Below, one piece after another: positions 20,207 through 63,464 of a DNA stretch of 64,000 nt. The stretch lies in NCBI GenBank assembly GCA_026874595.1, contig CM049306.1, positions 262,019 through 326,018 of the forward strand. Reading direction: 5' to 3'. Every line of letters begins with the position of its first letter. Within the stretch, counting starts at the first letter, position 1. The position numbers and the translations under genes are program-made. Under the pieces are notes generated by a model. That model worked only from the letters and a program-made list of their open reading frames with translations. It was not told the origin of the DNA and made no database searches. This DNA is from Sipunculus nudus. Taxonomy: Eukaryota; Annelida; Sipuncula; Golfingiida; Sipunculidae.

Positions 20207-20479
20207 AGATTTCTTCCATATTGGGCAGGTAAGCCATGTGTGAAAGATGGAAAGTTTGGGATGAAAAGTTTGAGCAATATGCGCAAAATCGAAGGGCTGG
20301 GATGAAAAGCTTGGCTTAAAATGCAGCCATAATCTTTTTAAATGAGTGGGTCATGTGAATTTGACATTTGACCTAATGACCAAAAATCGTAAAGTTTCTT
20401 GCTTTAGTGGTGGCCCATATATAAATCACGTTTGAAATCCATATATCAATCCAACCTGAAGTTATTATCAGGAAACAAA
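20207..20479. other. Unrecognised spacer
   Basis: This is AT-rich DNA with no shared repeat or gene signal. Overlapping minus-strand frames of 77 and 98 codons start in the next repeat and are not supported. Confidence 0.4.
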
Positions 20480-26840: not shown

Positions 26841-28341
26841 TAGGATGTACTTTTTTATTTGAAGAATAAAACGATCCCAGATTTGACGAAACTTACAATA
26901 TAAACACATAATGTGACCGAGAGTGTTAGACGCTATCGAATGCTGAAAACTAAAGGTCTTCAGCATTAAAATAACAGAATTATAGGCGTATCTTTGAATG
27001 GTCCCATGTTCTCGTTTGACAAGAAATGATGCGAGATATGACGAGATATTCAATTTTGTCACTTCAAACTAGTCAAGTGAATCTTGAACAATAGAAAAAT
27101 AAAATCTCTGGCATTAAAATGACAGAGATATAGACATTTGTTCGAATTCTCGAATATTCTCGTTTGGCGGGAGATGGTACGAGATGTGGCGAGATATAAG
27201 TTATTATCTTGTTAAGCTCCCAAAACGCAACAAAATGCTGAAAACTGCTCCTCTTTAGCCGAAAAGGTGACCAAGTTATATGCATTTCTGTGAAATCTCG
27301 TAATTTCTCGTTTGACGGAAAACAGAGCGAGATTCTACGAGACTTGCAATTAACTGCATTAGTGGCTAGGGAATGCTACCTCATGCAGAAAACTAGACAC
27401 TTGTAGTATAAATATTAACAGAGATAGAAGCAAAAAACTTATTATTTTCAGATTGCCAAGTTTTACCCCAAAATTTGGTTACCATGGTAACAGCAGCGCA
27501 AAGCTACATGTACGCAGGAATAAGCCGACGATCCTAGTTTCAGATAAGACAGTAAACATTGTGCCACGTTTAATATTTTTTTTGGTATTGCAGAAAAATG
27601 GTAAGTTGCAGTGTTTCCAGTACCACGCCCCCTGGTGGCTAGTTTCAAAAAATGAAAAAACAAGTTCGAGATAATACAGAAAAACAGAAAATATGTCACT
27701 TTTAGAACCTTAGCTGTAAAACTGCCACCTCTAAATCGTTTTTAATGAAATCTCGAAAAGTCTCCTTTGACGACAAATGGCACGAGATATTGCGAGACTT
27801 CCGTTAATTTTCCATAGAGCATATTAAATGCTACACAATGCAAAAAACTAGACCTCTCTAACTTAAAAAATGAAAAATTTTGAGTGAAATTTTCGAATTT
27901 TCTGATTTTCCCCCAAAAATACGTTACGATGGTAACAATCGACCAGAAAAATTTGCTAGCACTTGGAAAGCTAACATAAAGAGGAATAAAATGAGCTACA
28001 GATTATGCGGCTACGATTATTATTGACAAAGATATGAAGAAAGTAAAAATGTTAGGTTTTTTGGTGACCCTGACCTTGACCTTTGACCGATCATGACCAA
28101 AAACAATAGGCTCCGAGGAGAACCAATCTTACACTTAATGTATAAGTTTCAGAGCGATTGCTTAAAAACTGTGGCCTGTAGCGCGTGTACATACAGACAA
28201 ACAAACAGACAGACAAACAAACAAACAAACATACGCGGGTGACCAACATGCTTGCGAAAATCGAAGATTTCCGGCAAGCAACAAACAGACATCCGCGACT
28301 GACCAACCAGCTTGCGAAAATCGAAGATTTCCGGCAAGCAA
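26841..28341 (+). mobile_element. Diverged family 3 copy bordering the macrosatellite
   Basis: Several short repeats with CTCGTTTGACAAGA-like palindromes (26.8-27.3 kb) lead into a diverged unit: GTTACCATGGTAAC at 27478-27491, CGCCCCCTGGTGGC at 27626-27639, TGACCTTGACCTTTGACC at about 28067, then CAAA/CAGA repeats and two GCTTGC hairpins (28250-28279 and about 28310-28339). It probably represents an older unit from which the array to the right was amplified. Confidence 0.75.
28250..28279 (+). other. Family 3 3' hairpin (30 nt)
   Basis: Arms GCTTGC and GCAAGC enclose GAAAATC, a GAA loop and GATTTCC, with one bulged G. The 14-nt right arm ATTTCCGGCAAGC is the reverse complement of GCTTGCCGGAAAT in the family 3 head, giving a subterminal inverted repeat. 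One or two copies, within a 61-bp subrepeat, end each macrosatellite unit. Confidence 0.9.
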
Positions 28342-28382
28342 TAAAGTTGTGACTGTGCCTCCAACATGTATGATCATAGATG

Positions 28383-28480
28383 GGGCCCGGAGAGGCCGTC
28401 ACGCACCGCTGCACACGCCGGCCGCCCACCGTAAGGACCCTGCCGCCACTTGCGGCGACTGCACGTGACTTCGTGGTTTG
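28383..28480 (+). other. CpG-dense segment of the macrosatellite unit (example)
   Basis: GGGGCCCGGAGAGGCCGTCA and GACCCTGCCGCCACTTGCGG mark a GC-rich pocket of roughly 100 bp, repeated in all thirteen units but absent from the family 3 units right of 45128. It contains GCCGC-CACTT-GCGGC and, in most units, an ACGGCACGTGTC E-box-like hexamer. Confidence 0.75.
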
Positions 28481-28800
28481 GTGAAACACGGCGCGAGATT
28501 TGACGAGACTGACAATGCGACCCCTGAATGTGACTGCGAGTGTCAGCCGCTATCCGGCGCTGCAAGCCATGTGTCTGTAGCGTGAAAAATGACAGAATTA
28601 TAGGCATTTCTTTGAATGGTCACGTGTTCTCGTTTCACGAGAAACGGCGCGAGATATGACGAGACTTGCGATTGAATGGCTTAGAACTAGAGGGATGCTG
28701 TCTAACGCCGAAAACCAGACCTTTCTATCGCAAATATCAACAGAGATAGAAGCTGGAAAACTCCGAATTTTCAGATTGTCAAGTTTTACCCCGAAATTTG

Positions 28801-28814
28801 GTAACCATGGTAAC
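28801..28814. promoter_or_regulatory. RFX X-box-like palindrome, one per unit
   Basis: GTAACCATGGTAAC fits the X-box pattern recognised by RFX factors (GTNRCC, 0-3 nt, RGYAAC). In the macrosatellite it starts at 28801, 30142, 31411, 32680, 34011, 35273, 36535, 37865, 39127, 40457, 41727, 42996 and 44326, always 148 bp before the CTCF-like core. Perfect palindromes GTTACCATGGTAAC (27478) and CGTAACCATGGTTACG (46254) occur in related units. Binding is inferred only. Confidence 0.5.
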
Positions 28815-28948
28815 GGCAGCACAAAGCAACATGTGCGAAGGGATAAGCCAATGTTCCTAGTTTTAGATACGACCAAAAAAATGGTGTCACGTTTAATATT
28901 TTTTGAGATATTGCAGAAAAATGATATGTTACAGTGTTTCATGTACCA

Positions 28949-28962
28949 CGCCCCCTGGTGGC
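28949..28962 (-). promoter_or_regulatory. CTCF-like core motif, macrosatellite set
   Basis: The minus strand reads GCCACCAGGGGGCG, matching the vertebrate CTCF core consensus (CCACCAGGGGGCGC) for 13 bases, after which it has T in place of C. The same core starts at 28949, 30290, 31559, 32828, 34159 (one base changed), 35421, 36683, 38013, 39275, 40605, 41875, 43144 and 44474, and in older copies at 21591 and 27626. All are on the minus strand. CTCF is present in bilaterians; occupancy here is not shown. Confidence 0.55.
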
Positions 28963-29397
28963 TATTTCCAAAAAATGAAAAATTGATTTCGAGATATTTC
29001 TAAACAACACAAAATATGTCATTTTCAAAGTCATAGTTTAAAAAATGCGACCTGTAAGCCATATTTAATGAAATCTCGAAAATTCTCGTTTGACGAGAAA
29101 TGGTGCGAGATTTTACGAGACTTTTACTTGTATGATAAAAAGCTTATTTAGTACTATATGATGCAAAAAACTAGAACTCTCTAGCTTTAAAAATGACAAA
29201 GTTAGAAAAATTAGGCCTTTTATTTTCGAAAATCATGAGATTTCCCCCAAAATGTGTAACCATAGAAACAGCAGATTTCAGCAACATATACATCAGAAGA
29301 AAGGCCTTGGAATGCCGATTTAAATGAGCCATGTTTGAAGTGGCTATGACAAATAGTAATGGAGATATGAAGAAAAGAGCACTTTAGGAACTTTTGA

Positions 29398-29422
29398 TGA
29401 CCTTGACCTTGACCTTTGACCT
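29398..29422 (-). promoter_or_regulatory. AGGTCA half-site run, one per unit
   Basis: Read on the minus strand the TGACCTT run is AGGTCA, A, AGGTCA, AGGTCA, AGGTCA: one DR1 followed by two DR0 pairs, and it includes TCAAGGTCA, the extended half-site of ERR and NR5A-type nuclear receptors. It occurs in every macrosatellite unit and usually twice in each unit right of 45128. Such runs are frequent in bivalve repeats, so function is uncertain. Confidence 0.4.
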
Positions 29423-29682
29423 ATATTGCCCCAAAACAATAGGCTTCTTGCATTTTTGATTCTACACAAACTGTGAAAGTTTGAAAGCGATGGGATGAAA
29501 ATTGCGACCTGTAGAGACTGGACAGACAAACAAACAAACAAACAAACAGACAAACAGACATCCGCGACTGACCAACCAGCTTGCGAAAATCGAAGATTTC
29601 CGGCAAGCAACAAACAAACAGACAAACAGACATCCGCGACTGACCAACCAGCTTGCGAAAATCGAAGATTTCCGGCAAGCAA

Positions 29683-30951
29683 TAAAGTCTGGACTGTGCC
29701 TCCAACATGTATGATCATAGATGGGGCCCGGAGAGGCCGTCACGCACCGCTGCACACGCCGGCCGCCCACCGTAGGGACCCTGCCGCCACTTGCGGCGAC
29801 GGCACGTGTCTTCGTGGTTTGGCGAAAAACGGCGCGAGATTTGACGAGACTAACAATGTGACCCCTGAATGTGACTGCGAGTGTCAGCCGCTATCCAGCG
29901 CTGCAAACCATGTGTCTGTAGCGTGAAAAATGACATAATTATAGGCATTTCTTTGAATGGTCACGTGTTCTCGTTTCACGAGAAACGGTGCGAGATATGA
30001 CGAGACTTGCGATTGAATGACTAAGAACTAGAGGGATGCTGTCTAACGCCAAACACCAGACCTTTCTATCGCAAATATCAACAGAGAGAGAAGCTGGAAA
30101 ACTCCGAATTTTCAGATTGTCAAGTTTTACCCCAAAATTTGGTAACCATGGTAACGGCAGCACAAAGCAACATGTGCGAAGGGATAAGCCAATGTTCCTA
30201 GTTTCAGATACGACCCAAAAAATGGTGCCTCGTTTAATATTTTTTGAGATATTGCAGAAAAATGATATGTTACAGTGTTTCATGTACCACGCCCCCTGGT
30301 GGCTATTTCCAAAAAATGAAAAATTGGTTTCGAGATATTTCTAAATAACACAAAATATGTCATTTTCAAAGTCATAGTTTAAAAAATGCGACCTGTAAGC
30401 CATATTTAATGAAATCTCGAAAATTCTCGTTTGACGAGAAATGGTGCGAGATTTTACGAGACTTTCACTTGTATAATTAAAAGCTTATTTAGTACTATCT
30501 GATGCAAAAAACTAGAACTCTCTAGCTTTAAAAATGACAAAGTTAGAAAAATTAGGCCTTTTATTTTCGAAAATCATGAGTTTCCCCCCAAAATGTGTAA
30601 CCATAGAAACAGCAGATTTCAGCAACATATATATCAGAAGAAAGGCCTTGGAATGCCGATTAAAATGAGCCCTGTTTGAAGTGGCTATGACAAATAGTAA
30701 TGGAGATATGAAGAAAAGAGCACTTTAGGAACTTTTGATGACCTTGACCTTGACCTTTGACCTATATTGCCCAAAAACAATAGGCTTCTTGCATTTTTGA
30801 TTTTACACAAACTGTGAAAGTTTGAAAGCGATGGGATCAAAATTGTGACCTGTAGAGACTGGACAGACAAACAAACAAACAAACAAACAGACAAACAGAC
30901 ATCCGCGACTGACCAACCAGCTTGCGAAAATCGAAGATTTCCGGCAAGCAA
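29683..30951 (+). repeat. Macrosatellite unit 2 (type A, 1269 bp)
   Basis: Type A, one terminal hairpin. CTCF-like core 30290-30303; X-box-like site 30142-30155. Confidence 0.95.
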
Positions 30952-32220
30952 TAAAGTCTGGACTGTGCCTCCAACATGTATGATCATAGATGGGGCCCGG
31001 AGAGGCCGTCACGCACCGCTGCACACGCCGGCCGCCCACCGTAGGGACCCTGCCGCCACTTGCGGCGACGGCACGTGTCTTCGTGGTTTGGCGAAAAACG
31101 GCGCGAGATTTGACGAGACTAACAATGTGACCCCTGAATGTGACTGCGAGTGTCAGCCGCTATCCAGCGCTGCAAACCATGTGTCTGTAGCGTGAAAAAT
31201 GACATAATTATAGGCATTTCTTTGAATGGTCACGTGTTCTCGTTTCACGAGAAACGGTGCGAGATATGACGAGACTTGCGATTGAATGACTAAGAACTAG
31301 AGGGATGCTGTCTAACGCCAAACACCAGACCTTTCTATCGCAAATATCAACAGAGAGAGAAGCTGGAAAACTCCGAATTTTCAGATTGTCAAGTTTTACC
31401 CCAAAATTTGGTAACCATGGTAACGGCAGCACAAAGCAACATGTGCGAAGGGATAAGCCAATGTTCCTAGTTTCAGATACGACCCAAAAAATGGTGCCTC
31501 GTTTAATATTTTTTGAGATATTGCAGAAAAATGATATGTTACAGTGTTTCATGTACCACGCCCCCTGGTGGCTATTTCCAAAAAATGAAAAATTGGTTTC
31601 GAGATATTTCTAAATAACACAAAATATGTCATTTTCAAAGTCATAGTTTAAAAAATGCGACCTGTAAGCCATATTTAATGAAATCTCGAAAATTCTCGTT
31701 TGACGAGAAATGGTGCGAGATTTTACGAGACTTTCACTTGTATAATTAAAAGCTTATTTAGTACTATCTGATGCAAAAAACTAGAACTCTCTAGCTTTAA
31801 AAATGACAAAGTTAGAAAAATTAGGCCTTTTATTTTCGAAAATCATGAGTTTCCCCCCAAAATGTGTAACCATAGAAACAGCAGATTTCAGCAACATATA
31901 TATCAGAAGAAAGGCCTTGGAATGCCGATTAAAATGAGCCCTGTTTGAAGTGGCTATGACAAATAGTAATGGAGATATGAAGAAAAGAGCACTTTAGGAA
32001 CTTTTGATGACCTTGACCTTGACCTTTGACCTATATTGCCCAAAAACAATAGGCTTCTTGCATTTTTGATTTTACACAAACTGTGAAAGTTTGAAAGCGA
32101 TGGGATCAAAATTGTGACCTGTAGAGACTGGACAGACAAACAAACAAACAAACAAACAGACAAACAGACATCCGCGACTGACCAACCAGCTTGCGAAAAT
32201 CGAAGATTTCCGGCAAGCAA
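30952..32220 (+). repeat. Macrosatellite unit 3 (type A, 1269 bp)
   Basis: Almost identical to unit 2. CTCF-like core 31559-31572; X-box-like site 31411-31424. One terminal hairpin. Confidence 0.95.
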
Positions 32221-33550
32221 TAAAGTCTGGACTGTGCCTCCAACATGTATGATCATAGATGGGGCCCGGAGAGGCCGTCACGCACCGCTGCACATGCCGG
32301 CCGCCCACCGTAGGGACCCTGCCGCCACTTGCGGCGACGGCACGTGTCTTCGTGGTTTGGCGAAAAACGGCGCGAGATTTGACGAGACTAACAATGTGAC
32401 CCCTGAATGTGACTGCGAGTGTCAGCCGCTATCCAGCGCTGCAAACCATGTGTCTGTAGCGTGAAAAATGACATAATTATAGGCATTTCTTTGAATGGTC
32501 ACGTGTTCTCGTTTCACGAGAAACGGTGCGAGATATGACGAGACTTGCGATTGAATGACTAAGAACTAGAGGGATGCTGTCTAACGCCAAACACCAGACC
32601 TTTCTATCGCAAATATCAACAGAGAGAGAAGCTGGAAAACTCCGAATTTTCAGATTGTCAAGTTTTACCCCAAAATTTGGTAACCATGGTAACGGCAGCA
32701 CAAAGCAACATGTGCGAAGGGATAAGCCAATGTTCCTAGTTTCAGATACGACCCAAAAAATGGTGCCTCGTTTAATATTTTTTGAGATATTGCAGAAAAA
32801 TGATATGTTACAGTGTTTCATGTACCACGCCCCCTGGTGGCTATTTCCAAAAAATGAAAAATTGGTTTCGAGATATTTCTAAATAACACAAAATATGTCA
32901 TTTTCAAAGTCATAGTTTAAAAAATGCGACCTGTAAGCCATATTTAATGAAATCTCAAAAAATTCTCGTTTGACGAGAAATGGTGCGAGATTTTACGAGA
33001 CTTTCACTTGTATAATTAAAAGCTTATTTAGTACTATCTGATGCAAAAAACTAGAACTCTCTAGCTTTAAAAATGACAAAGTTAGAAAAATTAGGCCTTT
33101 TATTTTCGAAAATCATGAGTTTCCCCCCAAAATGTGTAACCATAGAAACAGCAGATTTCAGCAACATATATATCAGAAGAAAGGCCTTGGAATGCCGATT
33201 AAAATGAGCCCTGTTTGAAGTGGCTATGACAAATAGTAATGGAGATATGAAGAAAAGAGCACTTTAGGAACTTTTGATGACCTTGACCTTGACCTTTGAC
33301 CTATATTGCCCAAAAACAATAGGCTTCTTGCATTTTTGATTTTACACAAACTGTGAAAGTTTGAAAGCGATGGGATCAAAATTGTGACCTGTAGAGACTG
33401 GACAGACAAACAAACAAACAAACAAACAGACAAACAGACATCCGCGACTGACCAACCAGCTTGCGAAAATCGAAGATTTCCGGCAAGCAACAAACAGACA
33501 TCCGCGACTGACCAACCAGCTTGCGAAAATCGAAGATTTCCGGCAAGCAA
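32221..33550 (+). repeat. Macrosatellite unit 4 (type A, 1330 bp)
   Basis: Type A with two terminal hairpin subrepeats and a private CACATGCC and TCTCAAAAAATTC. CTCF-like core 32828-32841; X-box-like site 32680-32693. Confidence 0.95.
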
Positions 33551-34812
33551 TAAAGTTGTGACTGTGCCTCCAACATGTCTGATCATAGATGGGGCCCGGA
33601 GAGGCCGTCACGCACCGCTGCACACGCCGGCCGCCCACCGTAAGGACCCTGCCGCCACTTGCGGCGACGGCACGTGTCTTCGTGGTTTGGCGAAAGACGG
33701 CGCGAGATTTGACGAGACTAACAATGCGACCCCTGAATGTGACTGCGAGTGTCAGCCGCTATCCGGCGCTGCAGGCCATGTGTCTGTAGCGTAAAAAATG
33801 ACAGAATTATAGGCATTTCTTTGAATGGTCACGTGTTCTCGTTTCACGAGAAACGGCGCGAGATATGACGAGACTTGCGATTGAATGGCTTAGAACTAGA
33901 GGGATGCTGTCTAACGCCAAAAAACCCGACCTTTCTATCGCAAATAGCAACAGAGATAGAAGCTGGGAAACTCCGAATTTTCAGATTGTCAAGTTTTACC
34001 CCAAAATTTGGTAACCATGGTAACGGCAGCACAAAGCAACATGTGCGAAGGGCTAAGCCAATGTTCCTAGTTTCAGATACGACCAAAGAAATGGTGTCAC
34101 GTTTAATATTTTTTGAGATATTGCAGAAAAATGATATGTTACAGTGTTTCATGTACCACGCCCCCTGGTGCCTATTTCCAAAAAATGAAAAATTGGTTTC
34201 GAGATATTTCTAAATAACACAAAATATGTCATTTTCAAAGTCATAGTTTAAAAAATGCGACCTGTAAGCCATATTTAATGAGATCTCGAATATTCTCGTT
34301 TGACGAGAAATGGTGCGAGATTTTACGAGACTTTCACTTGTATAATAAAAAGCTTATTTAGTACTATCTGATGCAAAAAACTAGAACTCTCTAGCTTTAA
34401 AAATGACAAAGTTAGAAAAATTAGGCCTTTTATTTTCGAAAATCATGAGTTTTCCCCCAAAATGTGTAACCATAGAAACAGCAGATTTCAGCAACATATA
34501 TATCAGAAGAAGGGCCTTGGAATGCCGATTAAAATGAGCCATGTTTGAAGTGGCTATGACAAATAGTAATGGAGATATAAAGAAAAGAGCACTTTAGGAA
34601 CTTTTGATGACCTTGACCTTGACCTTTGACCTATATTGCCCAAAAACAATAGGCTTCTTGCATTTTTGATTTTACACAAACTGTGAAAGTTTGAAAGCGA
34701 TGGGATCAAAATTGCGACCTGTAGAGACTGGACAGACAAACAAACAAACAGACAAACAGACATCCGCGACTGACCAACCAGCTTGCGAAAATCGAAGATT
34801 TCCGGCAAGCAA
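33551..34812 (+). repeat. Macrosatellite unit 5 (type B, 1262 bp)
   Basis: First type B unit. Its CTCF-like core at 34159-34172 reads CGCCCCCTGGTGCC, the only one of the thirteen with a changed base. X-box-like site 34011-34024. One terminal hairpin. Confidence 0.95.
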
Positions 34813-36074
34813 TAAAGTTGTGACTGTGCCTCCAACATGTCTGATCATAGATGGGGCCCGGAGAGGCCGTCACGCACCGCTGCACACGCCGGCCGCCCAC
34901 CGTAAGGACCCTGCCGCCACTTGCGGCGACGGCACGTGTCTTCGTGGTTTGGCGAAAGACGGCGCGAGATTTGACGAGACTAACAATGCGACCCCTGAAT
35001 GTGACTGCGAGTGTCAGCCGCTATCCGGCGCTGCAGGCCATATGTCTGTAGCGTAAAAAATGACAGAATTATAGGCATTTCTTTGAATGGTCACGTGTTC
35101 TCGTTTCACGAGAAACGGCGCGAGATATGACGAGACTTGCGATTGAATGGCTTAGAACTAGAGGGATGCTGTCTAACGCCAAAAAACCCGACCTTTCTAT
35201 CGCAAATAGCAACAGAGATAGAAGCTGGGAAACTCCGAATTTTCAGATTGTCAAGTTTTACCCCAAAATTTGGTAACCATGGTAACGGCAGCACAAAGCA
35301 ACATGTGCGGAGGGCTAAGCCAATGTTCCTAGTTTCAGATACGACCAAAGAAATGGTGTCACGTTTAATATTTTTTGAGATATTGCAGAAAAATGATATG
35401 TTACAGTGTTTCATGTACCACGCCCCCTGGTGGCTATTTCCAAAAAATGAAAAATTGGTTTCGAGATATTTCTAAATAACACAAAATATGTCATTTTCAA
35501 AGTCATAGTTTAAAAAATGCGACCTGTAAGCCATATTTAATGAGATCTCGAATATTCTCGTTTGACGAGAAATGGTGCGAGATTTTACGAGACTTTCACT
35601 TGTATAATAAAAAGCTTATTTAGTACTATCTGATGCAAATAACTAGAACTCTCTAGCTTTAAAAATGACAAAGTTAGAAAAATTAGGCCTTTTATTTTCG
35701 AAAATCATGAGTTTTCCCCCAAAATGTGTAACCATAGAAACAGCAGATTTCAGCAACATATATATCAGAAGAAGGGCCTTGGAATGCCGATTAAAATGAG
35801 CCATGTTTGAAGTGGCTATGACAAATAGTAATGGAGATATAAAGAAAAGAGCACTTTAGGAACTTTTGATGACCTTGACCTTGACCTTTGACCTATATTG
35901 CCCAAAAACAATAGGCTTCTTGCATTTTTGATTTTACACAAACTGTGAAAGTTTGAAAGCGATGGGATCAAAATTGCGACCTGTAGAGACTGGACAGACA
36001 AACAAACAAACAGACAAACAGACATCCGCGACTGACCAACCAGCTTGCGAAAATCGAAGATTTCCGGCAAGCAA
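34813..36074 (+). repeat. Macrosatellite unit 6 (type B, 1262 bp)
   Basis: CTCF-like core 35421-35434; X-box-like site 35273-35286. Carries GCGGAGGGCTAAG where unit 5 has GCGAAGGGCTAAG. One terminal hairpin. Confidence 0.95.
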
Positions 36075-37404
36075 TAAAGTTGTGACTGTGCCTCCAACAT
36101 GTCTGATCATAGATGGGGCCCGGAGAGGCCGTCACGCACCGCTGCACACGCCGGCCGCCCACCGTAAGGACCCTGCCGCCACTTGCGGCGACGGCACGTG
36201 TCTTCGTGGTTTGGCGAAAGACGGCGCGAGATTTGACGAGACTAACAATGCGACCCCTGAATGTGACTGCGAGTGTCAGCCGCTATCCGGCGCTGCAGGC
36301 CATGTGTCTGTAGCGTAAAAAATGACAGAATTATAGGCATTTCTTTGAATGGTCACGTGTTCTCGTTTCACGAGAAACGGCGCGAGATATGACGAGACTT
36401 GCGATTGAATGGCTTAGAACTAGAGGGATGCTGTCTAACGCCAAAAAACCCGACCTTTCTATCGCAAATAGCAACAGAGATAGAAGCTGGGAAACTCCGA
36501 ATTTTCAGATTGTCAAGTTTTACCCCAAAATTTGGTAACCATGGTAACGGCAGCACAAAGCAACATGTGCGGAGGGCTAAGCCAATGTTCCTAGTTTCAG
36601 ATACGACCAAAGAAATGGTGTCACGTTTAATATTTTTTGAGATATTGCAGAAAAATGATATGTTACAGTGTTTCATGTACCACGCCCCCTGGTGGCTATT
36701 TCCAAAAAATGAAAAATTGGTTTCGAGATATTTCTAAATAACACAAAATATGTCATTTTCAAAGTCATAGTTTAAAAAATGCGACCTGTAAGCCATATTT
36801 AATGAGATCTCGAATATTCTCGTTTGACGAGAAATGGTGCGAGATTTTACGAGACTTTCACTTGTATAATAAAAAGCTTATTTAGTACTATCTGATGCAA
36901 AAAACTAGAACTCTCTAGCTTTAAAAATGACAAAGTTAGAAAAATTAGGCCTTTTATTTTCGAAAATCATGAGTTTTCCCCCAAAATGTGTAACCATAGA
37001 AACAGCAGATTTCAGCAACATATATATCAGAAGAAGGGCCTTGGAATGCCGATTAAAATGAGCCATGTTTGAAGTGGCTATGACAAATAGTAATGGAGAT
37101 ATGAAGAAAAGAGCACTTTAGGAACTTTTGATGACCTTGACCTTGACCTTTGACCTATATTGCCCAAAAACAATAGGCTTCTTGCATTTTTGATTTTACA
37201 CAAACTGTGAAAGTTTGAAAGCGATGGGATCAAAATTGTGACCTGTAGAGACTGGACAGACAAACAAACAAACAAACAAACAGACAAACAGACATCCGCG
37301 ACTGACCAACCAGCTTGCGAAAATCGAAGATTTCCGGCAAGCAACAAACAGACATCCGCGACTGACCAACCAGCTTGCGAAAATCGAAGATTTCCGGCAA
37401 GCAA
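36075..37404 (+). repeat. Macrosatellite unit 7 (type B, 1330 bp)
   Basis: CTCF-like core 36683-36696; X-box-like site 36535-36548. Two terminal hairpins. Confidence 0.95.
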
Positions 37405-38666
37405 TAAAGTTGTGACTGTGCCTCCAACATGTCTGATCATAGATGGGGCCCGGAGAGGCCGTCACGCACCGCTGCACACGCCGGCCGCCCACCGTAAGGA
37501 CCCTGCCGCCACTTGCGGCGACGGCACGTGTCTTCGTGGTTTGGCGAAAGACGGCGCGAGATTTGACGAGACTAACAATGCGACCCCTGAATGTGACTGC
37601 GAGTGTCAGCCGCTATCCGGCACTGCAGGCCATGTGTCTGTAGCGTAAAAAATGACAGAATTATAGGCATTTCTTTGAATGGTCACGTGTTCTCGTTTCA
37701 CGAGAAACGGCGCGAGATATGACGAGACTTGTGATTGAATGGCTTAGAACTAGAGGGATGCTGTCTAACGCCAAAAAACCCGACCTTTCTATCGCAAATA
37801 GCAACAGAGATAGAAGCTGGGAAACTCCGAATTTTCAGATTGTCAAGTTTTACCCCAAAATTTGGTAACCATGGTAACGGCAGCACAAAGCAACATGTGC
37901 GGAGGGCTAAGCCAATGTTCCTAGTTTCAGATACGACCAAAGAAATGGTGTCACGTTTAATATTTTTTGAGATATTGCAGAAAAATGATATGTTACAGTG
38001 TTTCATGTACCACGCCCCCTGGTGGCTATTTCCAAAAAATGAAAAATTGGTTTCGAGATATTTCTAAATAACACAAAATATGTCATTTTCAAAGTCATAG
38101 TTTAAAAAATGCGACCTGTAAGCCATATTTAATGAGATCTCGAATATTCTCGTTTGACGAGAAATGGTGCGAGATTTTACGAGACTTTCACTTGTATAAT
38201 AAAAAGCTTATTTAGTACTATCTGATGCAAAAAACTAGAACTCTCTAGCTTTAAAAATGACAAAGTTAGAAAAATTAGGCCTTTTATTTTCGAAAATCAT
38301 GAGTTTTCCCCCAAAATGTGTAACCATAGAAACAGCAGATTTCAGCAACATATATATCAGAAGAAGGGCCTTGGAATGCCGATTAAAATGAGCCATGTTT
38401 GAAGTGGCTATGACAAATAGTAATGGAGATATAAAGAAAAGAGCACTTTAGGAACTTTTGATGACCTTGACCTTGACCTTTGACCTATATTGCCCAAAAA
38501 CAATAGGCTTCTTGCATTTTTGATTTTACACAAACTGTGAAAGTTTGAAAGCGATGGGATCAAAATTGCGACCTGTAGAGACTGGACAGACAAACAAACA
38601 AACAGACAAACAGACATCCGCGACTGACCAACCAGCTTGCGAAAATCGAAGATTTCCGGCAAGCAA
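37405..38666 (+). repeat. Macrosatellite unit 8 (type B, 1262 bp)
   Basis: CTCF-like core 38013-38026; X-box-like site 37865-37878. Shares the rare CCGGCACTGCAGG variant only with unit 10. One terminal hairpin. Confidence 0.95.
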
Positions 38667-39996
38667 TAAAGTTGTGACTGTGCCTCCAACATGTCTGATC
38701 ATAGATGGGGCCCGGAGAGGCCGTCACGCACCGCTGCACACGCCGGCCGCCCACAGTAAGGACCCTGCCGCCACTTGCGGCGACGGCACGTGTCTTCGTG
38801 GTTTGGCGAAAGACGGCGCGAGATTTGACGAGACTAACAATGCGACCCCTGAATGTGACTGCGAGTGTCAGCCGCTATCCGGCGCTGCAGGCCATGTGTC
38901 TGTAGCGTAAAAAATGACAGAATTATAGGCATTTCTTTGAATGGTCACGTGTTCTCGTTTCACGAGAAACGGCGCGAGATATGACGAGACTTGCGATTGA
39001 ATGGCTTAGAACTAGAGGGATGCTGTCTAACGCCAAAAAACCCGACCTTTCTATCGCAAATAGCAACAGAGATAGAAGCTGGGAAACTCCGAATTTTCAG
39101 ATTGTCAAGTTTTACCCCAAAATTTGGTAACCATGGTAACGGCAGCACAAAGCAACATGTGCGGAGGGCTAAGCCAATGTTCCTAGTTTCAGATACGACC
39201 AAAGAAATGGTGTCACGTTTAATATTTTTTGAGATATTGCAGAAAAATGATATGTTACAGTGTTTCATGTACCACGCCCCCTGGTGGCTATTTCCAAAAA
39301 ATGAAAAATTGGTTTCGAGATATTTCTAAATAACACAAAATATGTCATTTTCAAAGTCATAGTTTAAAAAATGCGACCTGTAAGCCATATTTAATGAGAT
39401 CTCGAATATTCTCGTTTGACGAGAAATGGTGCGAGATTTTACGAGACTTTCACTTGTATAATAAAAAGCTTATTTAGTACTATCTGATGCAAAAAACTAG
39501 AACTCTCTAGCTTTAAAAATGACAAAGTTAGAAAAATTAGGCCTTTTATTTTCGAAAATCATGAGTTTTCCCCCAAAATGTGTAACCATAGAAACAGCAG
39601 ATTTCAGCAACATATATATCAGAAGAAGGGCCTTGGAATGCCGATTAAAATGAGCCATGTTTGAAGTGGCTATGACAAATAGTAATGGAGATATGAAGAA
39701 AAGAGCACTTTAGGAACTTTTGATGACCTTGACCTTGACCTTTGACCTATATTGCCCAAAAACAATAGGCTTCTTGCATTTTTGATTTTACACAAACTGT
39801 GAAAGTTTGAAAGCGATGGGATCAAAATTGTGACCTGTAGAGACTGGACAGACAAACAAACAAACAAACAAACAGACAAACAGACATCCGCGACTGACCA
39901 ACCAGCTTGCGAAAATCGAAGATTTCCGGCAAGCAACAAACAGACATCCGCGACTGACCAACCAGCTTGCGAAAATCGAAGATTTCCGGCAAGCAA
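38667..39996 (+). repeat. Macrosatellite unit 9 (type B, 1330 bp)
   Basis: CTCF-like core 39275-39288; X-box-like site 39127-39140. Private CCCACAGTAAGG. Two terminal hairpins. Confidence 0.95.
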
Positions 39997-41266
39997 TAAA
40001 GTTGTGACTGTGCCTCCAACATGTCTGATCATAGATGGGGCCCGGAGAGGCCGTCACGCACCGCTGCACACGCCGGCCGCCCACCGTAAGGACCCTGCCG
40101 CCACTTGCGGCGACGGCACGTGTCTTCGTGGTTTGGCGAAAGACGGCGCGAGATTTGACGAGACTAACAATGCGACCCCTGAATGTGACTGCGAGTGTCA
40201 GCCGCTATCCGGCACTGCAGGCCATGTGTCTGTAGCGTAAAAAATGACAGAATTATAGGCATTTCTTTGAATGGTCACGTGTTCTCGTTTCACGAGAAAC
40301 GGCGCGAGATATGACGAGACTTGCGATTGAATGGCTTAGAACTAGAGGGATGCTGTCTAACGCCAAAAAACCCGACCTTTCTATCGCAAATAGCAACAGA
40401 GATAGAAGCTGGGAAACTCCGAATTTTCAGATTGTCAAGTTTTACCCCAAAATTTGGTAACCATGGTAACGGCAGCACAAAGCAACATGTGCGGAGGGCT
40501 AAGCCAATGTTCCTAGTTTCAGATACGACCAAAGAAATGGTGTCACGTTTAATATTTTTTGAGATATTGCAGAAAAATGATATGTTACAGTGTTTCATGT
40601 ACCACGCCCCCTGGTGGCTATTTCCAAAAAATGAAAAATTGGTTTCGAGATATTTCTAAATAACACAAAATATGTCATTTTCAAAGTCATAGTTTAAAAA
40701 ATGCGACCTGTAAGCCATATTTAATGAGATCTCGAATATTCTCGTTTGACGAGAAATGGTGCGAGATTTTACGAGACTTTCACTTGTATAATAAAAAGCT
40801 TATTTAGTACTATCTGATGCAAAAAACTAGAACTCTCTAGCTTTAAAAATGACAAAGTTAGAAAAATTAGGCCTTTTATTTTCGAAAATCATGAGTTTTC
40901 CCCCAAAATGTGTAACCATAGAAACAGCAGATTTCAGCAACATATATATCAGAAGAAGGGCCTTGGAATGCCGATTAAAATGAGCCATGTTTGAAGTGGC
41001 TATGACAAATAGTAATGGAGATATAAAGAAAAGAGCACTTTAGGAACTTTTGATGACCTTGACCTTGACCTTTGACCTATATTGCCCAAAAACAATAGGC
41101 TTCTTGCATTTTTGATTTTACACAAACTGTGAAAGTTTGAAAGCGATGGGATCAAAATTGTGACCTGTAGAGACTGGACAGACAAACAAACAAACAAACA
41201 AACAGACAAACAGACATCCGCGACTGACCAACCAGCTTGCGAAAATCGAAGATTTCCGGCAAGCAA
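39997..41266 (+). repeat. Macrosatellite unit 10 (type B, 1270 bp)
   Basis: CTCF-like core 40605-40618; X-box-like site 40457-40470. Shares CCGGCACTGCAGG with unit 8. One hairpin with a longer CAAA tract. Confidence 0.95.
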
Positions 41267-42536
41267 TAAAGTTGTGACTGTGCCTCCAACATGTCTGATC
41301 ATAGATGGGGCCCGGAGAGGCCGTCACGCACCGCTGCACACGCCGGCCGCCCACCGTAAGGACCCTGCCGCCACTTGCGGCGACGGCACGTGTCTTCGTG
41401 GTTTGGCGAAAGACGGCGCGAGATTTGACGAGACTAACAATGCGACCCCTGAATGTGACTGCGAGTGTCAGCCGCTATCCGGCGCTGCAGGCCATGTGTC
41501 TGTAGCGTAAAAAATGACAGAATTATAGGCATTTCTTTGAATGGTCACGTGTTCTCGTTTCACGAGAAACGGCGCGAGATATGACGAGACTTGCGATTGA
41601 ATGGCTTAGAACTAGAGGGATGCTGTCTAACGCCAAAAAACCCGACCTTTCTATCGCAAATAGCAACAGAGATAGAAGCTGGGAAACTCCGAATTTTCAG
41701 ATTGTCAAGTTTTACCCCAAAATTTGGTAACCATGGTAACGGCAGCACAAAGCAACATGTGCGGAGGGCTAAGCCAATGTTCCTAGTTTCAGATACGACC
41801 AAAGAAATGGTGTCACGTTTAATATTTTTTGAGATATTGCAGAAAAATGATATGTTACAGTGTTTCATGTACCACGCCCCCTGGTGGCTATTTCCAAAAA
41901 ATGAAAAATTGGTTTCGAGATATTTCTAAATAACACAAAATATGTCATTTTCAAAGTCATAGTTTAAAAAATGCGACCTGTAAGCCATATTTAATGAGAT
42001 CTCGAATATTCTCGTTTGACGAGAAATGGTGCGAGATTTTACGAGACTTTCACTTGTATAATAAAAAGCTTATTTAGTACTATCTGATGCAAAAAACTAG
42101 AACTCTCTAGCTTTAAAAATGACAAAGTTAGAAAAATTAGGCCTTTTATTTTCGAAAATCATGAGTTTTCCCCCAAAATGTGTAACCATAGAAACAGCAG
42201 ATTTCAGCAACATATATATCAGAAGAAGGGCCTTGGAATGCCGATTAAAATGAGCCATGTTTGAAGTGGCTATGACAAATAGTAATGGAGATATGAAGAA
42301 AAGAGCACTTTAGGAACTTTTGATGACCTTGACCTTGATCTTTGACCTTTATTGCCCAAAAACAATAGGCTTCTTGCATTTTTGATTTTACACAAACTGT
42401 GAAAGTTTGAAAGCGATGGGATCAAAATTGTGACCTGTAGAGACTGGACAGACAAACAAACAAACAAACAAACAGACAAACAGACATCCGCGACTGACCA
42501 ACCAGCTTGCGAAAATCGAAGATTTCCGGCAAGCAA
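41267..42536 (+). repeat. Macrosatellite unit 11 (type B, 1270 bp)
   Basis: CTCF-like core 41875-41888; X-box-like site 41727-41740. The TGACCTT run is altered (TTGATCTTTGACCTTTATT). One hairpin. Confidence 0.95.
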
Positions 42537-43865
42537 TAAAGTCTGGACTGTGCCTCCAACATGTATGATCATAGATGGGGCCCGGAGAGGCCGTCACGCA
42601 CCGCTGCACACGCCGGCCGCCCACCGTAGGGACCCTGCCGCCACTTGCGGCGACGGCACGTGTCTTCGTGGTTTGGCGAAAAACGGCGCGAGATTTGACG
42701 AGACTAACAATGTGACCCCTGAATGTGACTGCGAGTGTCAGCCGCTATCCAGCGCTGCAAACCATGTGTCTGTAGCGTGAAAAATGACATAATTATAGGC
42801 ATTTCTTTGAATGGTCACGTGTTCTCGTTTCACGAGAAACGGTGCGAGATATGACGAGACTTGCGATTGAATGACTAAGAACTAGAGGGATGCTGTCTAA
42901 CGCCAAACACCAGACCTTTCTATCGCAAATATCAACAGAGAGAGAAGCTGGAAAACTCCGAATTTTCAGATTGTCAAGTTTTACCCCAAAATTTGGTAAC
43001 CATGGTAACGGCAGCACAAAGCAACATGTGCGAAGGGATAAGCCAATGTTCCTAGTTTCAGATACGACCCAAAAAATGGTGCCTCGTTTAATATTTTTTG
43101 AGATATTGCAGAAAAATGATATGTTACAGTGTTTCATGTACCACGCCCCCTGGTGGCTATTTCCAAAAAATGAAAAATTGGTTTCGAGATATTTCTAAAT
43201 AACACAAAATATGTCATTTTCAAAGTCATAGTTTAAAAAATGCGACCTGTAAGCCATATTTAATGAAATCTCGAAAATTCTCGTTTGACGAGAAATGGTG
43301 CGAGATTTTACGAGACTTTCACTTGTATAATTAAAAGCTTATTTAGTACTATCTGATGCAAAAAACTAGAACTCTCTAGCTTTAAAAATGACAAAGTTAG
43401 AAAAATTAGGCCTTTTATTTTCGAAAATCATGAGTTTCCCCCCAAAATGTGTAACCATAGAAACAGCAGATTTCAGCAACATATATATCAGAAGAAAGGC
43501 CTTGGAATGCCGATTAAAATGAGCCCTGTTTGAAGTGGCTATGACAAATAGTAATGGAGATATGAAGAAAAGAGCACTTTAGGAACTTTTGATGACCTTG
43601 ACCTTGACCTTTGACCTATATTGCCCAAAAACAATAGGCTTCTTGCATTTTTGATTTTACACAAACTGTGAAAGTTTGAAAGCGATGGGATCAAAATTGT
43701 GACCTGTAGAGACTGGACAGACAAACAAACAAACAAACAAACAGACAAACAGACATCCGCGACTGACCAACCAGCTTGCGAAAATCGAAGATTTCCGGCA
43801 AGCAACAAACAGACATCCGCGACTGACCAACCAGCTTGCGAAAATCGAAGATTTCCGGCAAGCAA
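42537..43865 (+). repeat. Macrosatellite unit 12 (type A, 1329 bp)
   Basis: An isolated type A unit between type B units. CTCF-like core 43144-43157; X-box-like site 42996-43009. Two hairpins, as in unit 4. Confidence 0.95.
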
Positions 43866-45127
43866 TAAAGTTGTGACTGTGCCTCCAACATGTCTGATCA
43901 TAGATGGGGCCCGGAGAGGCCGTCACGCACCGCTGCACACGCCGGCCGCCCACCGTAAGGACCCTGCCGCCACTTGCGGCGACGGCACGTGTCTTCGTGG
44001 TTTGGCGAAAGACGGCGCGAGATTTGACGAGACTAACAATGCGACCCCTGAATGTGACTGCGAGTGTCAGCCGCTATCCGGCGCTGCAGGCCATGTGTCT
44101 GTAGCGTAAAAAATGACAGAATTATAGGCATTTCTTTGAATGGTCACGTGTTCTCGTTTCACGAGAAACGGCGCGAGATATGACGAGACTTGCGATTGAA
44201 TGGCTTAGAACTAGAGGGATGCTGTCTAACGCCAAAAAACCCGACCTTTCTATCGCAAATAGCAACAGAGATAGAAGCTGGGAAACTCCGAATTTTCAGA
44301 TTGTCAAGTTTTACCCCAAAATTTGGTAACCATGGTAACGGCAGCACAAAGCAACATGTGCGAAGGGCTAAGCCAATGTTCCTAGTTTCAGATACGACCA
44401 AAGAAATGGTGTCACGTTTAATATTTTTTGAGATATTGCAGAAAAATGATATGTTACAGTGTTTCATGTACCACGCCCCCTGGTGGCTATTTCCAAAAAA
44501 TGAAAAATTGGTTTCGAGATATTTCTAAATAACACAAAATATGTCATTTTCAAAGTCATAGTTTAAAAAATGCGACCTGTAAGCCATATTTAATGAGATC
44601 TCGAATATTCTCGTTTGACGAGAAATGGTGCGAGATTTTACGAGACTTTCACTTGTATAATAAAAAGCTTATTTAGTACTATCTGATGCAAAAAACTAGA
44701 ACTCTCTAGCTTTAAAAATGACAAAGTTAGAAAAATTAGGCCTTTTATTTTCGAAAATCATGAGTTTTCCCCCAAAATGTGTAACCATAGAAACAGCAGA
44801 TTTCAGCAACATATATATCAGAAGAAGGGCCTTGGAATGCCGATTAAAATGAGCCATGTTTGAAGTGGCTATGACAAATAGTAATGGAGATATAAAGAAA
44901 AGAGCACTTTAGGAACTTTTGATGACCTTGACCTTGACCTTTGACCTATATTGCCCAAAAACAATAGGCTTCTTGCATTTTTGATTTTACACAAACTGTG
45001 AAAGTTTGAAAGCGATGGGATCAAAATTGCGACCTGTAGAGACTGGACAGACAAACAAACAAACAGACAAACAGACATCCGCGACTGACCAACCAGCTTG
45101 CGAAAATCGAAGATTTCCGGCAAGCAA
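43866..45127 (+). repeat. Macrosatellite unit 13 (type B, 1262 bp)
   Basis: Last unit. CTCF-like core 44474-44487; X-box-like site 44326-44339. Shares GCGAAGGGCTAAG with unit 5. Its hairpin (45096-45125) and AA directly precede the family 3 head at 45128. Confidence 0.95.
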
Positions 45128-46553
45128 CTAGATGACCTGAGGTCACGCGCTTGCCGGAAATGATGTAAAGTTAGTCAGATGAACGAGCAGTGTCAAAGTG
45201 AAAGAAAATAATCCATAGTTTGTGAAGAAAGAACCAATATTAACAAAGTTCTAAAGAAAATAAGATTTTGATATATTTTGATCACCTTGACCTTGACCTT
45301 TGACGTATTGAATAATAAACATAGGACTTCCAGATATCATCACAATATATGACAAGTGTTATTTACAAAATGATTCCTGCAAAACTGTGGCCAGCAGAAT
45401 GCTACATGTGAGACGCAAGAACCAGGAAGCAGGCGAAATTGAGGACAACTGACAAACAGACAAACATACTGCCAAACTGGCTCAAGATTGAGAACAGATG
45501 ACTTAATCATGTTATGAAGAAACCTCAGAGGAAGATAATAAGCTATAGTTTATGTAAATGAGGTTAATAGTTTTGGAGATATGGCCAAAAAAATATGTTG
45601 TGCAAGTTTGAGTGCACCGCCCCCTAGCGGCCAGTTCTGGAAAATGATGAATGGGCTTCGAGATATTAGTGTAAGACATAAGATGTAATAGTTTTAAAAG
45701 GATTCTTTCAAAACTGTGGCCTGTAGAATGCTATATGTGAGACGCAAGAACAGGTGAGCAAGCAAATTTGAGGACAACTGAGAAACAGACGGACACAGAG
45801 ACAAAGTGACTAAAGATTGAGACCAAATGAATACACCAGGTTTTTGGTAAGACCGAGCGGAAGAAAATAAGCTATAGTTTATGTAATTGTGGCTTACAGT
45901 TTAGGAGATATGGCCAAAACATGGTATGTTTGGGAGGTTTGCATACAGCGCCCCCTAGCGGCCGCATTCAGAAAATGGAAAATTATTTTCGAGATAATAG
46001 TGTAGGACTTACGATATGTCAGTTTCAAAATGATTCCAGCAAAACTGTGGCCTCCAGGGCAAGACTACTGAAATATCGAAATATTTCGTTTGACGAGATA
46101 TTATACGAGATATCGCGAGATTTATAAAACAAACTTGCAGAACTTGTTGAATGCTACCTGAAGCAAAAAACTAGGCCTCTCTATCTGTAAAACTGCCAAA
46201 GTTAGAAAAATAAGGCCCCTTATTTTCGAATATCATGATTTTTCCCAAAAATTCGTAACCATGGTTACGGCAAATTTGAGTCAGCTATACACCAGATGAC
46301 TGGCCTTGGAATGACGTTTAAAATGAGCTATGTTTGAAGAAGATACGACTAATAGTGACAAAGATATGAAGAAAAAACCGTTTTGAGAAGTTTTGATGAC
46401 CTTGACCTTGACCTTTGACCTATATTGCCCCAAAACAATAGCCCTCCAGGACTTTTGCTTGTCTACTAGCTGTATAAGTTTAAAAGCAATTGCTGCAAAA
46501 TTGTGGCCTGTAGAGAGTACACAGACAGACAGACAGACAAACAAACAGACAAA
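45128..46553 (+). repeat. Array unit a (1426 bp, two 330-bp monomers)
   Basis: CTCF-like cores at 45618-45631 and 45949-45962 (spacing 331). Perfect 16-nt palindrome CGTAACCATGGTTACG at 46254-46269. The head abuts the last macrosatellite hairpin. Confidence 0.9.
45618..45631 (-). promoter_or_regulatory. CTCF-like core motif, 330-bp monomer set
   Basis: The minus strand reads GCCGCTAGGGGGCG, fitting the CTCF consensus except for G in place of A at one position; where the flank is CAGCGCC (for example 45949, 49629, 56338) the match extends through GGGGGCGCTG. Starts: 45618, 45949, 48967, 49298, 49629, 50716, 51044, 51994, 52363, 52693, 55676, 56007, 56338, 57426, 58402, 58732, 59063, 60117, 60447, 60777, 61866, 62197, 62528, 62858. 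All have the same strand, and adjacent cores within a run are 328-331 bp apart. Binding is inferred. Confidence 0.5.
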
Positions 46554-46685
46554 CTAGATGACCTGAGGTCAAGCGCTTGCCGGAAATGACGTAAAGTTAG
46601 TCAGATGAACGAGAAATGTCAAAGTGAAATTAATCCCTAGTTTGTAAAGATAGGATCAATATTAACAAAGTTCTGAAGAAAAAAA

Positions 46686-48610
46686 CAAGGGACCTATGGG
46701 TCACTGTGCTCAGCTGACGTTAACCTTGAAGGTAAAAATCTAAAATAATATCTAATGGAGATAAAGTGTAAGAGGAAGAGGTAATAAAGGCCATGGTTGG
46801 TTTATATGATTGGTTTGTATTGATGAGCAAGAAATTGTTGCAAAAAATATTTTGTGACCTGACCATGTGTTTCCTAATGTTGAAACTAAAGCATGTGGGC
46901 AGTTTGTGAACAAATGATCTGTACTATTACCATGATCATTAATTGGTTTTTCGATTAACTGTTGACATTTCAGTAGTTTACACATTTGTTCAATTGAATC
47001 TATTTTTTTGTATAATCTATATTATTAAATATATATGTATTTTTTTTATGAAATGTATACAGTTGAAATATAGCTAATTAACAACATAAAACAGGGCAAA
47101 CAAAGCCTGATCTCAAATTCTGCTGAGGCAGGAAAATAATGAACAAATGTTTGTATTAAATCCTGATTTTTTTATCACATCAATTATTTTCTAATTTAAG
47201 TTTATATTTCTATACATTTCCAATTTAACATATATATCTGAATATAAAAGTTGATTCATAATTCTCAGTTGCATAATCATAAATCTCAATCTTGTCAGAT
47301 AACACCACATCATGCATACAAATGTTTATTTATTTTTTACCACAAAAATATATCTTTTAAATCTGCAAAACAATAAATATCTAAAAATAACACTTGATTT
47401 AGATTTCACAATTTTTAATTGTGTCTTTATTTATCCATAATGTGCTTCATATTTTATAATAATTTAAGCATACTGATGGGTTCATTTATATTTGTTAAAA
47501 TCATTTAAAAGAAAACTGATTTCTTTAAAAATGCTACATTACACAACATTGCATCTTCTGGATTACACATTAAATTACTTTTTCAAGGAAAGTTTTTGCA
47601 TATCGGAGTGGAAACAGCATTACAATTAAGGAGATACAGTGAAAACAATAACAATTACTGCATAACACTTGGTGGGTTGGGTTTGCGCGGGGGGAGGGGG
47701 GGGGGGGGGAGTGATGATTTGATGATTGGGGTGGTAATATCAGATATGAGAATAACTGTACACCTGTCACAGCAGGGGATCTCCCCCAGTGACTGTAACA
47801 AATCAGAAACCCTGGCATAGCTGACTTCCAGTGACCTGGAGTGGGACCCTGCATCTGTAATCAAAGCAAGTGACTACAGAAAAAAAAAATCAATAACTAG
47901 CTTAATTTTCAAGCTTTTATTTTCAAATTTCAGATTTAGACAAACTAAATATTTATGTTTACATGCTGTGAAAATTAAATCAATGGTGCTTACAAGAAAA
48001 AAACGTGCCATGGTCAAAGTTGGGCAAAATTTAAGGTACTGATTTTTTTTTTTATGCTAATAACTTAAAAAATTTACAGAATTCAGATCTTATTTTGGGT
48101 AAACAATTGAATCTTAATTAAACATAGTTATATACTTGAGAAAATAGACTCTAGTTTCAAAATTTTTCATGTTAAGTGAGTTATTATTTTTCCTGATTTT
48201 TTACAAAGTCCATTATGTTTGGGCCCATAACTTAAAGAATTTAAATTTTACAGACTTAATTTCTGGCATGTACATAGGAACTATATAGAGGAATATTTAT
48301 GGTAAATATGAAGAAAAACAGATGAGTGGTTTTGATATTAGGCAGTCCTGAAGTGTGAAAATAGGATTTTAATAAAAAATTGAGGTTTTTCCTTAATTTT
48401 CTCAAAGGAAGGAAGTCGCAAAGACCCAGTTTTCGGCTTGGTAGGAGATCTTGGGGACATCTAACATTATGCTGAATTTTGGATTCCTAGGTCTTACGGT
48501 TTCAAAACGTGCCACATCTATGGACGGACGGACGGACGGACGGACAGACGGACGGACGACGGACAATGGACCACGACTATAGCTCAGATGACTTATAGTC
48601 AGCTGAGCTA
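46686..48610 (+). mobile_element. Family 1a element, full length (1925 bp)
   Basis: It runs from CAAGGGACCTATGGGTCACT to the 31-nt hairpin 48580-48610, preceded by a (GGAC)n tract at about 48520-48560. Body order: AT-rich first part with ACAGGGCAAACAAAGCCTGA, G-run at about 47690-47710, CACCTGTCACAGCAGGGGAT, family 1 mid-body, tail, hairpin. No transposase frame. Nearly identical to the copy at 52725, so both are recent. Confidence 0.9.
47689..47710 (+). repeat. G-run in family 1a
   Basis: GGGGGGAGG-type runs precede a TGATGATTTGATGATTGGGG stretch. The sister copy has a shorter run at about 53731-53743 and lacks part of the following bases, so this site is unstable in length. Confidence 0.8.

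Positions 48611-63429: not shown

Positions 63430-63464
<35 letters not shown>

Follow-up and report, generated by a model that had tools for sequence, protein, structure and literature searches.

The 64,000-bp stretch of the Sipunculus nudus genome analyzed here (GenBank assembly GCA_026874595.1, contig CM049306.1, positions 262,019 to 326,018; hereafter the window) holds a tandem array of 13 repeat units, each with one site that resembles the binding motif of CTCF, followed by a second block of related repeats with further sites of the same kind. Judging from their termini, the units appear to belong to a family of non-autonomous Helentron-like elements (HINE-like elements). We describe the sites and the repeat that carries them, the spread of this repeat through the genome, and the CTCF protein of the species, and we consider whether a mobile element has been carrying and amplifying genuine CTCF-type sites.

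Tandem arrays and CTCF-like sites in the window

When one unit was compared with the window by blastn, 13 full-length matches were obtained (96.5 to 100% identity). The 14-base word CGCCCCCTGGTGGC was found on the plus strand once in each of these units, so that the CTCF motif itself lies on the minus strand; the word was exact in 12 of the 13 units and had one mismatch in the copy at 34,159. The word search and blastn thus bear out the sequence-only reading, which had described one CTCF-core word per unit, 12 of 13 intact, all facing the same way. Two additional exact copies (21,591 and 27,626) were located beyond the array, in diverged units. Spacing from site to site within the array was 1,262 to 1,341 bp.

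28339-45125, minus strand: tandem array of 13 HINE-type units of 1,262 to 1,271 bp, one CTCF-like site per unit, some units then carrying a 60- to 72-bp duplicate of the terminal hairpin
21588-21606, minus strand: CTCF-like site, 22.0 bits, in a diverged unit (77% identical) adjoining a 148-bp repeat array
27623-27641, minus strand: CTCF-like site, 22.0 bits, in a diverged unit (74% identical) directly ahead of the main array
28946-28964, minus strand: CTCF-like site of unit 1, 22.0 bits
30287-30305, minus strand: CTCF-like site of unit 2, 22.0 bits
31556-31574, minus strand: CTCF-like site of unit 3, 22.0 bits
32825-32843, minus strand: CTCF-like site of unit 4, 22.0 bits
34156-34174, minus strand: CTCF-like site of unit 5, core with one mismatch, 16.9 bits
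35418-35436, minus strand: CTCF-like site of unit 6, 22.0 bits
36680-36698, minus strand: CTCF-like site of unit 7, 22.0 bits
38010-38028, minus strand: CTCF-like site of unit 8, 22.0 bits
39272-39290, minus strand: CTCF-like site of unit 9, 22.0 bits
40602-40620, minus strand: CTCF-like site of unit 10, 22.0 bits
41872-41890, minus strand: CTCF-like site of unit 11, 22.0 bits
43141-43159, minus strand: CTCF-like site of unit 12, 22.0 bits
44471-44489, minus strand: CTCF-like site of unit 13, 22.0 bits
45127-64000, minus strand: second block of related elements, each with one to four central repeats of ~330 bp; 24 CTCF-like sites of 16.6 to 26.3 bits, core CGCCCCCTAGCGGC and variants
Second-block sites, minus strand, starts: 45615, 45946, 48964, 49295, 49626, 50713, 51041, 51991
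Continued: 52360, 52690, 55673, 56004, 56335, 57423, 58399, 58729
Continued: 59060, 60114, 60444, 60774, 61863, 62194, 62525, 62855

Sites were scored with the JASPAR MA0139.1 counts, and 16 bits was the cutoff for a strong site. At this cutoff the window contains 39 sites (15 in the ~1.27-kb family and 24 in the ~330-bp family), all 39 of them on the minus strand, whereas a first-order Markov simulation yields 0.03 per 64 kb. Similarly, the CGCCCCCTGGTGGC pattern with up to three mismatches matched the window 41 times, whereas 100 dinucleotide-preserving shuffles gave 0.88 matches on average and never more than 3. For a single 1,270-bp unit, the 22.0 bits of the intact array sites were never reached in 4,000 such shuffles, although the best shuffle scored 21.8; taken alone, this site is suggestive rather than overwhelming. 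The 331-bp unit of the second block scored 26.3 bits, against a best of 20.8 in 4,000 shuffles, and 22 of the 24 second-block sites reached at least 23.0 bits, i.e., more than any site in the first array. The proposed match to the CTCF consensus therefore exceeds the shuffled controls in both families. Forms of the site in these repeats include TAGCCACCAGGGGGCGTGG and TGGCCGCTAGGGGGCGGTG.

The sequence-only reading had been right to place these sites in the array, but it overlooked both the second block and the relationship between the two families, which share about 73% identity over 160 bp spanning the site and give longer alignments over about 650 bp. Since the two families are homologous, the CTCF-like site is probably older than either array. 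Anchor and site words extend slightly beyond the end of the window.

Termini and genomic spread of the repeat

Both ends of the repeat could be recognized in the window.

20479-20515, minus strand: HINE-like terminus, palindrome ATGACCAGAGGTCA and then GCTTGCCGGAAAT; possible left edge of the whole tandem or nested block
28250-45125, minus strand: terminal hairpins of the type GCTTGCGAAAATCGAAGATTTCCGGCAAGC (subterminal inverted repeat [subTIR] plus complementary inverted repeat); 20 plus-strand matches, 0 for the reversed pattern
Hairpin starts: 28250, 28310, 29579, 29651, 30920, 32189, 33459, 33519, 34781, 36043
Continued: 37313, 37373, 38635, 39905, 39965, 41235, 42505, 43774, 43834, 45096
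45127-63561, minus strand: opposite (3') termini of second-family elements; 9 matches in one orientation, 0 reversed
3' terminus starts: 45127, 46553, 50222, 51616, 55190, 56932, 57909, 59623, 63526

The first two hairpins (28250 and 28310) precede the 13-unit array, and one more lies near 63,490. Read along the minus strand, the layout is a 5' subterminal repeat with a nearby complementary copy, a GTCT/GTTT microsatellite, central tandem repeats, an inverted subterminal repeat, and a palindrome. In detail, the 5' subTIR is followed within 1 to 12 bp by its complementary inverted repeat at the 20 window hairpins; the left module holds a tetranucleotide microsatellite (ACAG/ACAA beside the hairpins on the plus strand); the center consists of satellite-like tandem repeats, as in the 331-bp and 148-bp arrays; and ATTTCCGGCAAGC is followed by the palindrome TGACC...GGTCA at nine places in the window and at 20479. 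This is the arrangement described for Cg_HINE of the Pacific oyster, namely, a 5' subterminal repeat with a complementary inverted repeat, a tetranucleotide microsatellite, central repeats, and a 3' subterminal repeat with a palindrome (PMC7492417). Like DINE-1 (PMC4067079), Cg_HINE is a non-autonomous Helentron with satellite-like central repeats. Tandem Helitrons that lack a 3' end have also been reported (PMC7492417), and the 13-unit array likewise contains no 3' terminus, the nearest being at 45,127 on its right flank and at 20,479 to its left.

Isolated copies elsewhere in the genome have the hairpin GCTTGCCGAAATC-n-GATTTCCGGCAAGC at one end and ACTAGATGACCAGAGGTCACGCGCTTGCCGGAAAT at the opposite end. 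The hairpin was present in 9 of 10 such loci, as was the other terminus; the outer border of homology coincided with the hairpin in 8 loci and with the other terminus in 4, some loci exceeding the fetched stretch. The 16-base end of the hairpin was counted 6,122 times in the 1.43-Gb genome and its reversed control 0 times. Helitron_like_N gave at least 143 genome matches, some in frames of more than 2,200 amino acids. On the strength of these termini, we regard the units as a non-autonomous Helentron-like element, which may have been mobilized by a Helentron. HINE repeats also lie 3.7 to 3.8 kb downstream of two Helitron frames; we took this proximity to be a coincidence, since the intervening DNA is not homologous between the two loci.

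Unit-spaced tandem copies were found on C3, C4, and C5 in addition to C1, the contig of the window, and a related array was found on C10. These copies rule out a single-locus macrosatellite like the human DXZ4 array, which had been the comparison drawn from the sequence alone; the array is instead one among numerous tandem piles formed by a HINE-like family that is present on many chromosomes. Relatives of the element with CTCF-like sites lie at thousands of places in the genome, and among the matches listed, with their flanks taken into account, 17 of 20 dispersed exact sites fell in the same family.

We gauged retention of the site in two samples drawn without reference to the motif. The downstream anchor, a pattern that missed the window units and matched length variants, occurred at 859 places. 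Forty of 100 listed places were fetched, and 32 belonged to the family (seven of the others had no similarity, and one ended before the site); 25 of these 32 copies had a site of at least 16 bits. The upstream anchor occurred at 4,065 places, and 20 of 100 listed, all outside the window, were fetched; 16 were assigned to the family by eye, the other 4 being dropped, and 14 of the 16 had a site at the same cutoff. Thus, 39 of 48 copies carried the site, including some only about 68 to 75% identical to the window units, although the 48 are not independent, with 25 left at 85% identity. Variants in the deeper copies include AAGCCACCAGAGGGCGCTG and TGACCGCCAGGGGGCGCTG. The comparison of these copies indicates that the family has retained the site while some individual copies decay.

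Host CTCF, sites outside the repeat, and other features

The genome encodes one clear CTCF orthologue, on contig C11, which is 56% identical to the human finger region (next match, 41%) and aligns best with human CTCF in the Protein Data Bank (PDB) (E = 1.5e-113). Fingers 3, 4, and 5 are identical to the human fingers at positions -1, 2, 3, and 6 (the human letters are also those shown in the alignment). A tyrosine-aspartate-phenylalanine (YDF) triplet, which we take to be the cohesin-binding motif, lies 40 residues ahead of finger 1. The residues SVYDF were aligned to human CTCF (PDB chain 7w1m_H). Since the core DNA-contacting fingers are canonical and a likely cohesin-binding motif is present, the host CTCF most likely binds these sites. 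Many C2H2 zinc-finger genes were also seen on C16, C7, and C9, mostly listed on C16, with 321 matches to the CTCF finger query.

CTCF-type words are not confined to the repeat. The core word CCRCYAGRGGGC occurs 16,860 times in the genome, compared with 407 occurrences of its reversal and 299 of a version with AG swapped to GA; among the first 100 places listed, 73 were in clusters of three or more. Twenty places were fetched, comprising 19 of the 27 outside clusters and 1 from a cluster of four, so this sample leans toward isolated sites. Sixteen did not resemble any of three reference stretches of the repeat (blastn, E 1e-3), and two pairs among them were alike. In the resulting 14 independent sites, the mean matrix fit at seven positions unused in the search was 0.05, relative to -3.54 (standard deviation, 1.01) for local shuffling; a fit this good arose in 1 of 10,000 such shuffles and in 0 of 5,000 draws with random positions. 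Position 16 was a purine in 12 of the 14. These results suggest that sites with the usual CTCF-type specificity also exist in other DNA of this genome, while clusters of the repeat hold most of the listed sites. In the swapped control, CCACTGAGGGGC-type words at multiples of 90 bp were met at C1:96749315-96752026, which accounts for 19 of its listed places.

Several other features of the window touch on the arrays. The 13-unit array has an observed/expected CpG ratio of 1.02, as against 0.59 for most of the second block and 0.40 for the window's first 20.7 kb; the high value of the first array alone fits unmethylated or recently homogenized DNA. A direct repeat, TGACCTTGACCTTTGACC, which resembles nuclear-receptor sites, was found in 12 of the 13 units; the window has 17 exact copies, in the array and the second block, all on the plus strand. 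One second-family element is interrupted by an AT-rich stretch of 1.9 kb, so that the flanking sites are 3,018 bp apart; similar ends occur beside copies at two loci elsewhere (L108 and L051).

29404-44946, plus strand: nuclear-receptor-like direct repeat TGACCTTGACCTTTGACC, 12 of 13 units
TGACCTTGACCTTTGACC starts: 29404, 30745, 32014, 33284, 34614, 35876, 37138, 38468, 39730, 41060, 43599, 44929
46682-48611, no strand assigned: AT-rich stretch whose ends, by eye, resemble an inverted-repeat insertion (CAGCTGA...TCAGCTGAG)

The window begins ~0.3 Mb from the start of contig C1. A 279-bp satellite at 10051-10787 holds a partly CTCF-like word, AGGTGGCGCCACCT (best matrix site, 14.9 bits, plus strand, 10475), and two more satellites lie at 12630-14319 and 24429-25957 (periods of 145/431 bp and 365 bp, in that order). 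Rfam and tRNA scans of the window gave no matches. Elsewhere in the assembly, the small contigs C118 and C128 gave three haemerythrin-like domain matches; the frames beside them on C118 are bacterial in appearance, which hints at contamination or at DNA of a symbiont.

Weighing the explanations and comparison with known systems

Taken together, these observations lead us to favor, with a probability of roughly two in three, a HINE lineage that carries genuine CTCF-type sites and amplifies them as head-to-tail piles. According to this model, the lineage would have acquired a CTCF-type site in its repeated central part and carried it over the long term; tandem copying, whether by rolling-circle replication or by unequal exchange, would have produced arrays with all sites pointing one way, and dispersal would have put thousands of copies across the genome. 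Binding of CTCF to the predicted sites is probable. If cohesin were stopped as in vertebrates, the minus-strand array could serve as a strong right-hand loop anchor toward lower coordinates, i.e., toward the start of the contig, although the vertebrate rule may not hold in invertebrates. We infer, rather than observe, mobility by a Helentron, CTCF binding, any influence on chromosome folding, and any advantage for the element or its host.

A number of results weigh against this model. The sequence-only reading had proposed testing the contact residues of the species' CTCF, and these are identical to the human residues in fingers 3 to 5, but fingers 6 and 7 keep only 3 of 8 (QNSA versus QGTM, 1 of 4 in finger 6; RTDI versus RSDV, 2 of 4 in finger 7), and fingers 1, 2, 8, 9, and 11 keep 1 or 2 of 4. 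Nine of the 48 motif-blind copies score below 16 bits, and examination of three Helitron neighborhoods gave no clear autonomous partner sharing the ends of the element. Tests for constraint on the site were weak or negative: column by column, its conservation follows the CTCF matrix no better than that of other stretches (ranks 42, 26, and 9 among 444 registers for 25, 29, and 40 rows, respectively), the set with the least redundancy shows a modest preference for harmless substitutions (the fraction of null draws that did as well was 0.040, 0.008, and 0 of 20,000), and other stretches of the element, such as AGTTTCAAAAGGATT, are equally conserved. Finally, two minus-strand copies lie amid plus-strand ones at C1:19.42-19.48 Mb. 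This mixed stretch, and the number of loci in which the termini border the homology, lower our confidence slightly.

The role of orientation deserves particular caution. Among the first 100 sites listed, all six clusters with at least three members, including that of the window, are unidirectional, as are the 39 sites in the window; this much of the one-directional platform envisaged from the sequence stands. However, the co-orientation arises from head-to-tail amplification, and shared orientation alone is no evidence of a loop anchor. Since echinoderm CTCF motifs are described as having no orientation pattern at domain boundaries (PMC13317027), it would be unwise to take a one-directional platform for granted in an invertebrate. 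It is doubtful, if conceivable, that CTCF-bound arrays are in use as one-way loop anchors or as insulators shaping the animal's chromosomes, much as DXZ4 but spread over many of them. The retained YDF motif and the CpG ratio of the array, which fits unmethylated DNA, would agree with such a use, whereas that ratio fits recent homogenization as well, the second block has a far lower one, and both the mixed stretch and the constraint tests count against it. A slightly better, still tentative candidate is a selfish motif, in which CTCF binding would open chromatin or insulate the element for its own replication while the host gains nothing. The site lies in the repeated middle portion of an element that looks mobile, is present in most copies, and has been lost from a minority of old ones; this is consistent with the idea, although common descent also predicts retention in young copies.

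Two further explanations dispense with CTCF altogether. The motif might be required by a protein of the element itself, by a hairpin, or by some other zinc-finger protein, its likeness to CTCF sites being fortuitous; the abundance of C2H2 genes and the column conservation off the CTCF matrix agree with this, and some versions could form a short stem by eye (CCGC...GCGG, CCAC...GTGG). Yet outside the repeats, too, this word is enriched together with CTCF-like flanks, and we consider this explanation improbable. A conserved hairpin in particular was rejected by eye, since some diverged copies lose the stem and retain CTCF-allowed letters, as does CAGCGCCCTCTGGTGGCTT at locus L042. Least credible by far is an ordinary satellite in which a chance CTCF-like word was amplified by homogenization: the high unit identity and the narrow lead of the single unit over its best shuffle would agree with it, but the homologous second family has a differing CTCF-type core with a mostly higher score, and the site is found in diverged copies elsewhere. 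Going beyond the favored model, the boldest version, in which a rolling-circle transposon supplies most CTCF sites, builds unidirectional loop anchors on many chromosomes, and leaves a folding map rewired by a Helentron, strikes us as unlikely, though less so than a motif unrelated to CTCF.

If the HINE model is true, it would provide a DNA-transposon route for spreading CTCF sites. It would also matter for chromosome folding outside vertebrates: according to a 2023 review, direct evidence for domain formation by either mechanism is lacking in invertebrates (PMC10658181). Several chromosomes carry arrays in which at least a dozen nearly identical CTCF-type sites point the same way, and such arrays constitute a strong test of directional anchoring. 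Should they make no Hi-C stripes or boundaries, directional anchoring would be unlikely in this lineage; should they make them, it either predates vertebrates or evolved twice.

No CTCF sites are known to us in HINEs, in contrast to the CTCF-like sites of the units described here; no paper joining CTCF and Helentron was found in the library searched, and among the matches listed for CTCF with Helitron, tandem repeat, or bivalve, CTCF appeared only in an oyster methylome paper (PMC4378273), with no title on the subject. CTCF-type motifs in invertebrates have been reported at squid domain boundaries (PMC9023564) and cephalopod loop anchors (PMC12407938), but those motifs were found by enrichment at Hi-C features and are not tied to a tandem mobile element. 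DXZ4 likewise consists of tandem kilobase units that bind CTCF, comparable to the one co-oriented CTCF-like site per unit here, but it is restricted to the X chromosome and has proven CTCF binding and orientation-dependent contacts, whereas the present arrays lie on several chromosomes and derive from a mobile-looking element (PMC3491370, PMC3218863, PMC5899087). The CTCF sites borne by mammalian short interspersed nuclear elements share with ours the spreading of sites by a mobile element, except that those are retrotransposons with binding shown by chromatin immunoprecipitation sequencing, while here the element is a rolling-circle-type DNA element in a non-vertebrate and the sites are predicted (PMC3368268). 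Another parallel is offered by the ISX/ISXR helitrons of Drosophila miranda, in which a helitron disperses sites for a chromatin complex, as proposed here; those sites, 77 on the neo-X, serve the MSL dosage-compensation complex and are experimentally proven, whereas ours are predicted sites for CTCF (PMC4384637).

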